Below are positions 7,991 to 11,882 of a stretch of DNA of 64,000 nucleotides, in pieces. The stretch is from Candidatus Eisenbacteria bacterium (GTDB taxonomy: Bacteria; Eisenbacteria; RBG-16-71-46; JAFGJU01). Below the pieces are notes generated by a model, which did no database searches, had not been told where the DNA came from, and saw nothing but the letters and a program-made list of their open reading frames with translations. The translations under genes and the position numbers were made by a program. The stretch is taken from positions 101,606 through 165,605 of the forward strand of contig JAPLKG010000003.1 in NCBI GenBank assembly GCA_026388185.1. The letters are read 5' to 3'. Position 1 is the first letter of the stretch; every line of letters begins with the position of its first letter.

Positions 7991-8179
7991 TTACCCCTGC
8001 ACAATCCAGCCTCGCCCGGTCTCCTCTCCATCACCCATCGCAACCGCCACAATCGCACACGCGATCCAGTCCGACAACTTATTCGTCTCCCTCGCACGCT
8101 CACACCACAGATTGACACCCGCCGACACGCAAGCGGGTACCACCAACGACAGCAGCACAACAACAATCAGCTTCTTCAC
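7991..8179 (-). CDS. Cassette 1 small secreted/membrane peptide
   Basis: GTG 8179 has GGAGGT 8 nt upstream, and that ribosome site overlaps the end of the preceding larger gene. The 62-residue product starts with a signal-like segment (MKKLIVVVLLSLVVPACVSAG) followed by a short amphipathic region, C-E-R-A-R-E-T-N-K-L-S-D-W, and a second hydrophobic patch. It is clearly homologous to the 65-residue product at 10040-10237 (shared hydrophobic start, C-E-x-A-x-E-T-x-K-L-x-D-W). I do not recognise the family. Conservation between two copies, with the same ribosome site and spacing, argues that it is really translated. Confidence 0.7.
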   Translation of the reverse strand: MKKLIVVVLLSLVVPACVSAGVNLWCERARETNKLSDWIACAIVAVAMGDGEETGRGWIVQG

Positions 8180-8195
8180 GGCAACTCACCTCCTT

Positions 8196-8765
8196 TCACC
8201 TGGTCTCTCGGTAGGTAGTGTCCTCGATCGCCCCGACCACCTCGAACTCAACTATGTCCTCCATCCGAAAACTACCCTCAGCAAACTTAACCACACCGCA
8301 CGGCCGCCCTGCGTCCTCCTTACTCCAAACCGACTTTCTCGTCACGACCACCGGCTTCTTCCTCGCGTCATACACCTCCGTCTGCATCAGGTCGGGCGTG
8401 AACAAACATGCCTCACTCTCGTAGCGCTTCCCGCCCTTGTCGATCAACACAATCCTAGTGCTCTTGGTGAACACTACCTTTTCAACCGCACCAAACTTTA
8501 TCGAGAAACCCAACCACACACCCGGCTCAGCAACCATAACCCCGTACATCTTCGCAGCCTCTACCCCAGCCGGTATCTTCGACAGCACATCAGCAAGCCT
8601 AACCAGGCGCCACGCCTTAAACTCAGAATACATCTCCCATCCACCACCGCCAGCCATCCACACCACCGCACCCTTCTCCCCCACACGGAAACCACCATCA
8701 CCACACGGCGCCCACAACACCATTAGGCAAACAACGATCAACACCGCTCCCATCGCTCTCCTCAT
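8196..8765 (-). CDS. Cassette 1 secreted protein of about 190 aa, unknown family
   Basis: ATG 8765 is preceded by GGAGGGAG. The 189-residue product begins with a signal peptide (MRRAMGAVLIVVCLMVLW...). It is homologous along its length to the products at 9279-9857 and 10254-10820. The best conserved stretch runs V-x-F-T-K-x-x-x-I-V, D-x-x-G-K-R-x-E-S-E, F-x-P-D-x-x-Q-x-x-V-Y-D-x-R, V-V-V, VKFAEGS and D-I-V-E-F-E-V-V-G-A-I near the C-terminus. The middle part (about 50-90) is more variable. No catalytic motif is apparent; the pattern suggests a compact beta-rich exported domain. The small peptide gene starts 16 nt downstream, so the two are very likely cotranslated. Confidence 0.75.
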   Translation of the reverse strand: MRRAMGAVLIVVCLMVLWAPCGDGGFRVGEKGAVVWMAGGGGWEMYSEFKAWRLVRLADVLSKIPAGVEAAKMYGVMVAEPGVWLGFSIKFGAVEKVVFTKSTRIVLIDKGGKRYESEACLFTPDLMQTEVYDARKKPVVVTRKSVWSKEDAGRPCGVVKFAEGSFRMEDIVEFEVVGAIEDTTYRETR

Positions 8766-9082
8766 CTCGCACTACTCCCTCCAACCCCGGTCCGATCAAC
8801 AACACCCTTGAACATGTGGGCTCCACCGCTCGAGATGACATCTGGATCCTAGCACTCGCAACCTGTGACCTGGTCGCACCAATCTTCTTGTATCGCACAA
8901 CTCGTGCCAGGACGCAACTAATGTTGTGATATTGCCGCGATCCCTACCTACTCGCCCGTCAACGAGTTATGTGACCGAGTAAATGCCCGCACTCATCGCG
9001 ACCCACGCCCGCCCACTCAGTTTTGCGACCAAAGTCACCAGTCAGCGTGGGAGAGGTACAACTCTGTGAAACGCAACGCAGT
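8766..9082. other. Gene-free leader between cassettes 1 and 2
   Basis: No open frame with a ribosome site is visible on either strand. Next to the cassette 1 ribosome site lies a 20-bp sequence (8781-8800) that recurs exactly at the same place before cassette 3. The stretch presumably carries the promoter or leader of cassette 1, but I cannot point to a convincing -35/-10 pair. Confidence 0.4.
8781..8800 (-). repeat. 20-bp leader repeat, copy 1
   Basis: CCAACCCCGGTCCGATCAAC (plus-strand reading) is identical at 8781-8800 and 10837-10856, in both cases a few bases upstream of the ribosome site of a large cassette gene. It is a candidate conserved 5'-UTR or operator element. Confidence 0.6.
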
Positions 9083-9253
9083 TCAGTGGGTACGAGATAG
9101 CCACGTTCTTGGCGACCTGGGTAACAGATTTTTGTCTTCTCTGATCTTGTTCCAAACAGAAGGGCGCGTTTGGCGAGAACCAAGCGCGCCCTGTTTGTTC
9201 GGATTCTGTCCCTCTCTTCTCTCGAAAAGGCCGGCCACCACAGCACGCTTCAT
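9083..9253 (-). pseudogene. Cassette 2 relic of the small-peptide gene
   Basis: The position, the ribosome site (GAGAGGAGGTGGGTTGG) and the first codons match the start of the cassette 3 small gene, but after M-K-R-A-V-V-A-G-L the frame loses the hydrophobic core and the C-E-x-A-x-E-T segment. It then runs through a perfect-looking hairpin to a stop after 56 residues. I read this as a degraded copy, with the hairpin now ending the cassette 2 transcript. A divergent functional peptide cannot be excluded. Confidence 0.5.
9153..9197. terminator. Long hairpin downstream of cassette 2
   Basis: AGGGCGCGTTTGG (9161-9173) pairs with CCAAGCGCGCCCT (9180-9192) over 13 bp with one G-U pair and a 6-nt loop. 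Flanking CAAAC/GTTTG extends the stem past a small bulge. Short T-rich flanks occur on both sides, so it could stop transcription in either direction. It lies inside the degraded small-gene frame. Confidence 0.65.
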
Positions 9254-9278
9254 GCCAACCCACCTCCTCTCACTCCAG

Positions 9279-9857
9279 CTACATCCCTCCTCCGTCCGCG
9301 ATCGCTCCAACAACCTCAAAACCCACTATGTCACCCAGCTTCACACTCCCCGCCCGGAACTTCACCGCGCCACACGGCCCCCAACGGTCCGACCCGCACC
9401 ACACAGCATTACGCGACACAACAACCGGCGACGTCCTCGAGTCATACACGCTCGTCTGCGACCGATCCGGCCAGAAACACACCCCCTCACTCTCAACCCT
9501 CTTCCCCTCTCTGTCCCTCACAACGATCTTCGTGTTCCTAGTGAACGTCACACTCTTAACATGAACAAGGTCCACTCGAAAAGCCAACCACACACCCTCA
9601 TTCTTCGCTATCTCCTCAAACACCAGCCACCCAACAACCCTGTCCGGCCTCCCCTCAACAGACTTCCGGAGCCTCTCACGATCGAACAGCCGAAACCCGA
9701 TCACCCTCCACGAGCTGTCCGGCGCCGCCCAACTCACTCTCTTCTCATCAGCTCTCCAAGCCTCGACGTCGCCACACGGAACAACAAGCCCCAGGAACCC
9801 ACCGACCACAAGAGCAACACCCACACACGCACACAACACAGAACGCGACAGTCCCAT
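9279..9857 (-). CDS. Cassette 2 secreted protein, unknown family
   Basis: I choose ATG 9857 because GGAGGTGG lies just upstream and the frame then opens a signal peptide (MGLSRSVLCACVGVALVVGG). The mature part shares the family core seen at 8196-8765: V-x-F-T-x-N-T-K-I-V, D-x-E-G-K-R-x-E-S-E, F-W-P-D-x-S-Q-T-x-V-Y-D-x-R, P-V-V-V-S and G-A-V-K-F-x-x-G-S with D-I-V-G-F-E-V-V-G-A-I. Its C-terminus ends G-G-G-M instead of the T-Y-R-(D/E)-T tail of the other two copies. A 98-bp leader upstream is nearly identical to that of cassette 3. Function unknown. Confidence 0.75.
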   Translation of the reverse strand: MGLSRSVLCACVGVALVVGGFLGLVVPCGDVEAWRADEKRVSWAAPDSSWRVIGFRLFDRERLRKSVEGRPDRVVGWLVFEEIAKNEGVWLAFRVDLVHVKSVTFTRNTKIVVRDREGKRVESEGVCFWPDRSQTSVYDSRTSPVVVSRNAVWCGSDRWGPCGAVKFRAGSVKLGDIVGFEVVGAIADGGGM

Positions 9858-9877
9858 CTCGAGCCACCTCCCTCCAG

Positions 9878-9975
9878 CCCCCTGAGAATGCAAGCCGGCG
9901 CGATGAGTGCGCGCGATCGACCACCGCACGCCCATCACCAACTCGACCTTTCAGCGAGCCAAGACGCGCCGGCCA
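9878..9975 (-). repeat. 98-bp direct repeat, copy A (leader of cassette 2)
   Basis: 9878-9975 and 10862-10959 are direct repeats differing at about 4 positions by eye. Each lies just upstream of a large cassette gene on the minus strand. The element is not coding in any obvious frame; it is a candidate promoter/5'-UTR unit duplicated with the cassettes. Confidence 0.8.
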
Positions 9976-9994
9976 CCAATCACACGCTGCACCA

Positions 9995-10020
9995 GGAAGA
10001 CTGGCTGACGCCAGTTTTCC
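9995..10020. terminator. Hairpin downstream of cassette 3
   Basis: GGAAGACTGGC (9995-10005) pairs with GCCAGTTTTCC (10010-10020) over 11 positions with one G-T wobble and a TGAC loop, 20 nt beyond the cassette 3 small-gene stop. There is no minus-strand T-tail, so termination strength is uncertain. Confidence 0.5.
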
Positions 10021-10039
10021 TCATGCAACAGCCGCACGG

Positions 10040-10237
10040 TCAATACTGCCAATCAACCGGGATACCGTCACCACTATCCGCCTGAATACAACGCACTACG
10101 AGGATCATCCCGCACCACAACCAGTCAGCTAACTTTCCGGTCTCCGCAGCATACTCGCACGCCAGCGGCAGCGCCACAGCCACACCAACCGGCACCAAAA
10201 ACGACAGCAGCAGAACCACAAGAATCACCTTTCTCAC
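10040..10237 (-). CDS. Cassette 3 small secreted/membrane peptide
   Basis: GTG 10237 has GGAGGT 8 nt upstream, the same arrangement as in cassette 1. The 65-residue product starts V-R-K-V-I-L-V-V-L-L-L-S-F-L-V-P-V-G and continues with a C-E-Y-A-A-E-T-G-K-L-A-D-W segment and a second hydrophobic patch (L-W-C-G-M-I-L-V-V). It matches the 7991-8179 product. Both retain one Cys before the E-T-x-K-L motif. It could be an exported peptide or a two-helix membrane peptide. The family is unknown to me. Confidence 0.7.
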   Translation of the reverse strand: MRKVILVVLLLSFLVPVGVAVALPLACEYAAETGKLADWLWCGMILVVRCIQADSGDGIPVDWQY

Positions 10238-10253
10238 ACCAACCCACCTCCTC

Positions 10254-10820
10254 TCACTCAGTATCTCGATACGTGCTGTCCCCGACCGCACCCACCACCT
10301 CAAACTCGACGACGTCCTTAGGACGCACACTGCCCTCAGCGAACTTCGCAGTCCCTAGAGCCGTCGTATCGGCAGCCCGACAGTACACAGAGTGCATCGT
10401 CACAACCACGCTCATCTTCCGCGTGTCATACACCTGGCTCTGCGCCTCATCCGGACAGAAGAACAACCCCTCACTCTCGTGACGATTCCCCTTCCTATCC
10501 ACCACAACGATCTTCGCACCCTTCGTGAACACCACCTTCCGCACACTCCTAAACCCCACACCAAACTTCAGCCACTCACCAGGCTCCTTAACCATCAACT
10601 CAATCAGCCTAAGCCCCTCCTGACCAGCAGGTCTCTCAGGCATCACCATGGGCAATTTCTCAACAGCCCACCTACCGAAACCACCAACCGCCCACCCCTC
10701 TCCGGCCGGAACCCACACCTTCGCACCCTTCTCACTCACGTAGAACCTGGCATCACACAACGACACAAGCGACGCCACCACCAACGGCGTCACAATCAAC
10801 ATCAGCCCCAGCTTCCTCAT
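10254..10820 (-). CDS. Cassette 3 secreted protein, unknown family
   Basis: ATG 10820 is preceded by GGAAGGAG. The 188-residue product has a signal peptide (MRKLGLMLIVTPLVVASLVSL, cleavage near C-D-A) and the family core: V-x-F-T-K-G-A-K-I-V-V-V-D-R-K-G-N-R-x-E-S-E, F-C-P-D-E-A-Q-S-Q-V-Y-D-T-R, KFAEGS and D-V-V-E-F-E-V-V-G-A-V. With cassette 1 it shares S-E-K-G-A near the mature N-terminus and the T-Y-R-D/E-T end. It is the most upstream large gene of the array, 16 nt from its small partner. Function unknown; export is the only confident statement. Confidence 0.75.
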   Translation of the reverse strand: MRKLGLMLIVTPLVVASLVSLCDARFYVSEKGAKVWVPAGEGWAVGGFGRWAVEKLPMVMPERPAGQEGLRLIELMVKEPGEWLKFGVGFRSVRKVVFTKGAKIVVVDRKGNRHESEGLFFCPDEAQSQVYDTRKMSVVVTMHSVYCRAADTTALGTAKFAEGSVRPKDVVEFEVVGAVGDSTYRDTE

Positions 10821-10836
10821 CCCTCACTCCTTCCTA

Positions 10837-10856
10837 CCAACCCCGGTCCGATCAAC
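10837..10856 (-). repeat. 20-bp leader repeat, copy 2
   Basis: Identical to 8781-8800 and at the same place relative to the ribosome site of the downstream large gene. Confidence 0.6.
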
Positions 10857-10861
10857 CAACA

Positions 10862-10959
10862 CCCCCTGAGAATGCAAGCCGGCGCGACGAGCACGCGCGA
10901 TCGACCACCGCACGCCCATCACCAACTCGACCTTTCAGCGAGCCAAGACACGCCGGCAA
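10862..10959 (-). repeat. 98-bp direct repeat, copy B (leader of cassette 3)
   Basis: Partner of 9878-9975, about 96% identical by eye. It starts directly after the 20-bp leader repeat. Confidence 0.8.
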
Positions 10960-11882
10960 CCAGCCACACGCAACGCAACAATGCGCCACGAAACAAGCTG
11001 TGCTCCACGAGATCGCGCCAGGCAACAGAACCTCGCCGCAAAAGATCGTGCCGCACGAAGCTCGCACCCTACTCGGTGCGACAATATCACTTATTTAGAG
11101 TACCCCGTAGAACAGATGCTTCCTCAGCAACCGCCACGCGGCTAGCAGAGCCGTTCTCCAGGCACGAGTCACCCACGCCGGGCTCGCGCCGTCCCACCAC
11201 ATCAGCACCGGTCACACACCTCCCTAGGCGTCACGCCAAGAGATCGCTTGGATTCACCTGCACAGTGGCCGCGTGCGTCTCCCCGTCTCCTTATCCCCCT
11301 TCCCTCTCTGTCCGCTCCACCTGTTCTGTCGACTGAGCGGGTCAGGGGCGGGGCAGGGTGACCTTAAAGAGCGGCGACGATGGAGGTCTTGGGACGGTAA
11401 ACTCGGAAGTCCCTCGTGTGCGCATCATCCGTGCTCTCTTACCGCAATCGCTCTGGTTGCAGTTGCGGGGTCACCCTTTGAACCCCGGTTGCTGTGGAAC
11501 ACCAACCGCTGTCAAGCACTTCAAAACTGTCTTCAATGCAGAAAATGACCTCGTTTGATCTGCCGAGCATATTATTGCACATACGCAAATACTTGTCAAT
11601 AGGAAAGTGCCGCGCCCCGTGTCGCCTTCGCGTGCGGCCGGTTTTGCCCACTCGGCTGACGACGCGAATGAGCGCAATGGCTAAAACCAACGCCTCGGGC
11701 AAGCCCGCGGTGTCTCCGCTGAACCCACAGCACGCCACCGAGCCGACTACGCCCTTGCCGACGCCGACACCGCCTGCAAATGACTCCAGTCGGCACGGCC
11801 AACTGTTGCCGAAACTCGTCATTAGCGATACAATCCCATCGACCGCATCGTGCCGGGAGCGTCTCGTCCGTGGGGAGTAACC
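10960..11882. other. Long gene-poor region between the cassette array and the MttB operon
   Basis: About 0.9 kb with no open frame that combines a ribosome site, a protein-like composition and a recognisable family on either strand. The only clear signal is a leftward promoter at 11571-11599. Several short inverted repeats occur around 11440-11520, for instance GGGGT/ACCCC. The left part shares the plus-strand C/A-rich composition of the cassette array; the right part (from about 11340) looks more like ordinary chromosome. Confidence 0.5.
11571..11599 (-). promoter_or_regulatory. Orphan leftward sigma70-type promoter
   Basis: On the minus strand TTGACA (11594-11599) and AATAAT (11571-11576) are 17 bp apart. 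Transcription would run toward the cassette array, whose first gene starts some 740 nt away. It could therefore drive the array through a very long leader or make an unrecognised RNA. Confidence 0.55.

Follow-up and report, generated by a model that had tools for sequence, protein, structure and literature searches.

A duplicated cassette of adjacent genes for an exported protein and a small exported peptide in a Candidatus Eisenbacteria genome, with relatives in a second phylum

The window (the entire stretch of 64,000 nucleotides analysed here) contains an array of three paralogous cassettes, each composed of a gene for a protein of about 190 residues (L) followed by a gene, in one case truncated, for a small peptide (S). 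As judged from the sequences, L and S constitute a conserved, selected and adjacent gene pair, and both products have evident signal peptides. We think it probable, by a modest degree, that the cassette encodes a co-exported protein–peptide pair of the cell envelope that has been expanded and shuffled in this host.

Organization of the cassette array

The cassettes, designated A, B and C in the direction of transcription, have the following features.

10862–10971, minus strand: 110-nt leader repeat upstream of L-A, 94% identical to 9878–9987
10254–10820, minus strand: L-A gene, 188 aa, predicted to be exported and to form a beta-sandwich
10040–10237, minus strand: S-A gene, 65 aa, GTG start, predicted signal peptide and acidic mature peptide with Cys27 and Cys42
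9878–9987, minus strand: 110-nt leader repeat upstream of L-B, 94% identical to 10862–10971
9279–9857, minus strand: L-B gene, 192 aa
9229–9253, minus strand: S-B remnant, a start codon and about 7–8 codons
9151–9203, minus strand: strong hairpin directly after the S-B remnant, −32.3 kcal/mol, z −5.2
8766–9171, minus strand: copy-C leader block, 83% identical to the leader of the cassette on contig C8
8196–8765, minus strand: L-C gene, 189 aa
7991–8179, minus strand: S-C gene, 62 aa, GTG start

The original prediction, which was made from the sequence alone, described this array correctly in all main points. The three L genes do encode homologous exported proteins of the predicted size (188–192 aa, 36–49% identical pairwise), with signal peptides, like those of S, judged by hydrophobicity and sequence. 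The two intact S genes encode small exported peptides of 62–65 aa, each starting 16 nt downstream of its own L. The predicted spacing of 16–25 nt thus holds in A and C at 16 nt and in B at 25 nt, except that in B only a remnant is present: behind a preserved ribosome site, about 7–8 codons are recognisable from an ATG at 9253, followed by unrelated sequence. One S is therefore truncated as had been noticed, but it is the middle copy rather than the third. The hairpin at 9151–9203 has no clear T run behind it. The ribosome sites of the S genes, thought to be identical, are not strictly so, but nearly identical, with the consensus A(G/A)AGGAGGTG(A/G)GTTGNN followed by the start codon.

The segments upstream of the L genes have a complex relationship. 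Copies A and B have the 110-nt leader repeat in common, and copy C and the C8 cassette of the same genome are alike, at 0.66–0.96 identity per 50 nt, through about 400 nt of leader and the region encoding the signal peptide, beyond which identity falls to about 0.5. The idea that each cassette has its own leader is thus partly correct, in that these blocks exist, but they are swapped between copies. The copy-C leader finds no support as a structured RNA (fold z +1.05, no Rfam match), and the simplest reading is therefore that the 5′ ends, comprising leader and signal peptide, have recombined among the host copies, as the sequence comparison suggests; the likeness of the copy-C and C8 leaders may instead reflect constraint on the promoter region. 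The possibility that the copy-C leader is a high-copy IS remnant finds no support either, as just two genuine copies are present in the genome and its ORF has no Pfam match.

Distribution of the gene pair

Searches covered 932 genomes counting repeats, at one genome per species. In the host genome (2.62 Mb in 20 contigs), a profile of the three window L genes identifies six L genes at three loci, where four S genes are intact, which bears out the view that a coupled pair has been duplicated repeatedly. Contig C10 has the order L-L-S, its L genes (c10a and c10b) being 13 nt apart, and contig C8 has a single L-S cassette. It may be that c10a and c10b have one S in common. The mosaic relationships of the window genes extend to these loci: L-B is closest to the C8 copy (mature parts 55% identical), and L-C has its 5′ end in common with the C8 copy, while its mature part is closest to c10a (66%). 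L-A is closest to an L gene of another genus (G014; 51% over the full length, 56% in the mature part).

Distribution within the phylum is patchy, with relatives in 3 of the 47 genomes searched, the host included. The two others, G014 and a member of another family (G016), carry L with S located 5 nt after it or overlapping it by 4 nt, so that the L-to-S gaps in the phylum are 16, 16, 16, 16, 5, −4 and −4 nt, and 25 nt for the truncated copy. An extra S gene in G016, near a contig end, has an IstB-like transposase gene upstream instead of L. IstB-like (IS21) fragments are present near the ends of both S-carrying contigs of that genome (stretch L052:3772-4526 and the end of L026), which suggests that IS21 has inserted within an array of cassettes.

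Sampling of 290 relatives, extending into other phyla, yielded one L gene in a second phylum, where a search followed by an improved profile placed L in 7 of 20 genomes. All seven also have a gene for a small exported peptide adjoining L, as the original prediction would have it. This gene lies after or overlaps L in G115, G256, G306 and G307 (−86 to +5 nt) and is ahead of L by 42 nt in G300, G301 and G303. Most of the genomes bearing the pair have just one, and it is the host that has expanded to six L genes.

Overall, an intact S directly adjoins 14 of the 16 L genes, the exceptions being L-B, with its truncated S, and c10a, which is followed by c10b. Because homologous pairs are present at two other host loci and in other genomes, the pairing is not a matter of chance; S is nonetheless not needed one-to-one with L, since L-B and c10a have no S of their own. 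The L proteins of the two phyla are homologous: the own-phylum profile alone matched the second-phylum L proteins at 3.8e-8 to 8.8e-5, and the two families align with an hhalign probability of 97.6% (E 4.3e-12). Sequence comparison of the S peptides of the two phyla gives no demonstrable homology beyond the signal peptide, and it is therefore the occurrence of a small exported partner, more clearly than its sequence, that is conserved.

Predicted properties of the two products

An AlphaFold model of L computed with nine sequences is confident (pLDDT 81.5) and has the form of a beta-rich sandwich. W36, S116 and F160 (L-A numbering) are invariant in the 15 L genes aligned. The best structural comparisons of this model with VIA are to 5bxg (Z 4.8, rmsd 4.9, 122 aligned) and to MPT63, 1lmi (Z 4.6, rmsd 3.7, 109 aligned). 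These are beta-sandwich proteins that are either secreted or uncharacterised, and both Z scores are below the level that the tool regards as meaningful. Foldseek against the PDB and viral models gives no match at E 0.001; a DUF4352 viral protein is at rank 12 with E 0.11. L may resemble the MPT63-like and DUF4352-like immunoglobulin-fold proteins in having a beta-sandwich of similar size, and MPT63 is also secreted. It differs in that the structural scores are below the meaningful level and that the L genes tested from both phyla have no hmmscan match to PF11611 or the MPT63 family; PF11611 was not found in the host genome. MPT63-like and DUF4352-like proteins are not known to have a small peptide partner.

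As anticipated, neither L nor S has a recognisable family. Pfam, NCBIfam, PHROGs and PADLOC give weak, chance-level matches only, and PDB sequence searches give nothing credible. There were no relatives in pattern scans of viral contigs and GTDB r220 contigs, which reach mainly close relatives, or in tblastn comparisons with phage and plasmid sequences.

The S peptides of the phylum have several distinctive features. First, the description of S as a small hydrophobic peptide fits its signal peptide, but the predicted mature peptides, of 41–45 aa with cleavage sites placed by eye, are all acidic, with net charges of −2 to −7. Second, among the seven S genes only Met1 and two cysteines 14 to 16 residues apart are invariant; the proposed core C-E-x-A-x-E-T-x-K-L-x-D-W is present in both intact window copies. 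Third, the residues preceding the first invariant cysteine vary (W, A, F, G, S, N, read by eye) and do not form a lipobox, and no processing motif is visible. The AlphaFold model of S is weak (pLDDT 69) and has helices that put the cysteines either side of a turn. The second-phylum S peptides lack these two cysteines and have a Trp-containing helix and a C-terminal GGWxxx or GGHWN. A 40-aa ORF elsewhere (stretch L015:319-441) ends in three GGHAWW repeats that are loosely like these GGW/GGHW ends.

Selection and co-divergence

Selection on both members had been proposed from their conserved cores, and orthologues confirm it, with dN/dS clearly below 1 for both. Among G300, G301 and G303, for which dS is unsaturated, omega is 0.13–0.25 for S and 0.13–0.20 for L. 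Comparison of cassette A with that of G014 likewise gives pS greater than pN in S (p=2.7e-6) and in L (p=3e-12). Pairwise omega among the host paralogues is about 0.4–0.8, values that are rough because dS is large, and this divergence is consistent with relaxed constraint or with diversification after duplication. Distances of L and S are correlated (Mantel r 0.71, 28 of 5040 permutations), and the C10 S fits better with c10a as its partner than with c10b (r 0.71 versus 0.62), although shared descent by itself would also be expected to give co-divergence of L and S.

These data bear on whether only L matters, with S a rapidly evolving peptide, accessory or regulatory, that the operon structure carries along. 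This would account for the persistence of L-B and c10a without their own S and for the lack of clear homology between the S peptides of the two phyla. However, S is itself under purifying selection, the own-phylum peptides have an invariant cysteine pair, and S is downstream of L at most loci and, for 14 of the 16 L genes, is intact and directly adjoining; we regard a role for L alone as rather improbable.

They also bear on an exported toxin/immunity system, in which S would be a secreted antibacterial peptide and L a periplasmic immunity protein binding it, or the reverse, and in which an arms race would be the cause of the duplication and of the shuffling of 5′ ends. Tandem duplication, the rapid divergence of the host paralogues, the correlated divergence of L and S, and L genes kept without their own S in the manner of orphan immunity genes are consistent with such a system, and polymorphic toxin/immunity cassettes similarly have duplicated adjacent pairs that diverge in a correlated way, with one partner also present as additional orphan copies. 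There are, however, several points of difference. The acidic mature S peptides of the phylum are unlike the usual membrane-active peptides; the single-copy second-phylum orthologues are strongly conserved, which speaks against an arms race; both L and S have signal peptides; no toxin or immunity domain or delivery module was found, there being no such match in Pfam, NCBIfam, PHROGs or PADLOC; and no bacteriocin exporter was recognised by eye among the neighbouring ORFs. Since orphan L genes fit an envelope role and a toxin/immunity role alike, we still allow the latter some weight, as an unlikely explanation.

Genomic context and composition

The neighbours of the cassettes, identified by inspection, differ from locus to locus. 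The window has a glycosyltransferase-like and a methyltransferase-like gene, contig C10 has genes resembling those for isocitrate dehydrogenase and a metallophosphatase, and C8 has one resembling that for apolipoprotein N-acyltransferase; in G014 the neighbour is an operon of the TrmD/RpsP/Ffh kind, and in G016 it is a TonB-receptor-like gene. The pair is therefore a stand-alone unit that does not belong to any larger conserved operon. Upstream of the L-L-S genes on C10 (stretch L014:5239-5562) is an ORF for a 107-aa exported product with four RIDDIGF repeats that has no counterpart in the 46 genomes searched.

In both G300 and G303, PhoB-like and PhoR-like genes lie a short way downstream of the S-L pair (by inspection; stretches L088, L086 and L093); in G303 a PstS-like gene lies beyond these, also by inspection. 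This position next to a two-component pair, together with the pairing of a small, variable exported peptide with a single partner, is compatible with S being a secreted peptide signal, either whole or processed, and L its exported binding or processing partner. Yet a sensor or regulator is not a recurrent neighbour elsewhere among the loci and S has no visible processing motif, and we consider a signalling pair distinctly improbable.

The coding strand of the window array is extremely rich in G+T, at 0.61–0.72 per 500 bp compared with a sampled genome mean of 0.51 (sd 0.033). Such stretches occur at window positions 8001–11000 and at L077:12501-13750, L063:1-1250 and L079:6001-6750; the extremes are at the cassettes, at an IS3-like transposase and, at the end of one contig, in a Trp-rich exported ORF, and elsewhere in about 464 kb sampled no 500-bp window departs from 0.5 G+T by more than 0.11. 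We considered this composition as a cassette-specific property and rejected it, as the IS3 transposase and the other exported ORF also have it and the second-phylum L genes are without it.

A proposed role in the cell envelope

We prefer a cell-envelope complex to a toxin/immunity system because S is acidic and the single-copy orthologues are conserved. Each cassette would give rise to two co-expressed exported partners. L is predicted to cross the inner membrane by means of a Sec-type signal peptide and, according to the model, to fold, over about 160 residues, as an immunoglobulin-like beta-sandwich. S is predicted to be a short exported peptide, acidic and helical, which in the own phylum probably contains one disulfide. 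Outside the cytoplasm L would most likely bind its own S, as a carrier, chaperone or anchor, and the two may act together as a small complex of the envelope or cell surface. A more specific proposal, which we offer tentatively as possible but doubtful, is that these are two-component extracytoplasmic systems, present in at least two phyla, in which an Ig-like L captures a dedicated short, acidic S and so assembles or controls some structure at the cell surface. The expansion in copy number and the shuffling of promoters and signal peptides would then be a means of varying which pair is expressed.

This is a gene pair that has no match in the family libraries searched, yet it has been kept together in two phyla with both of its members under selection. 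With the single-copy pairs of the second phylum its function can be tested directly, and the host, whose set is expanded and mosaic, shows how such a pair diversifies.
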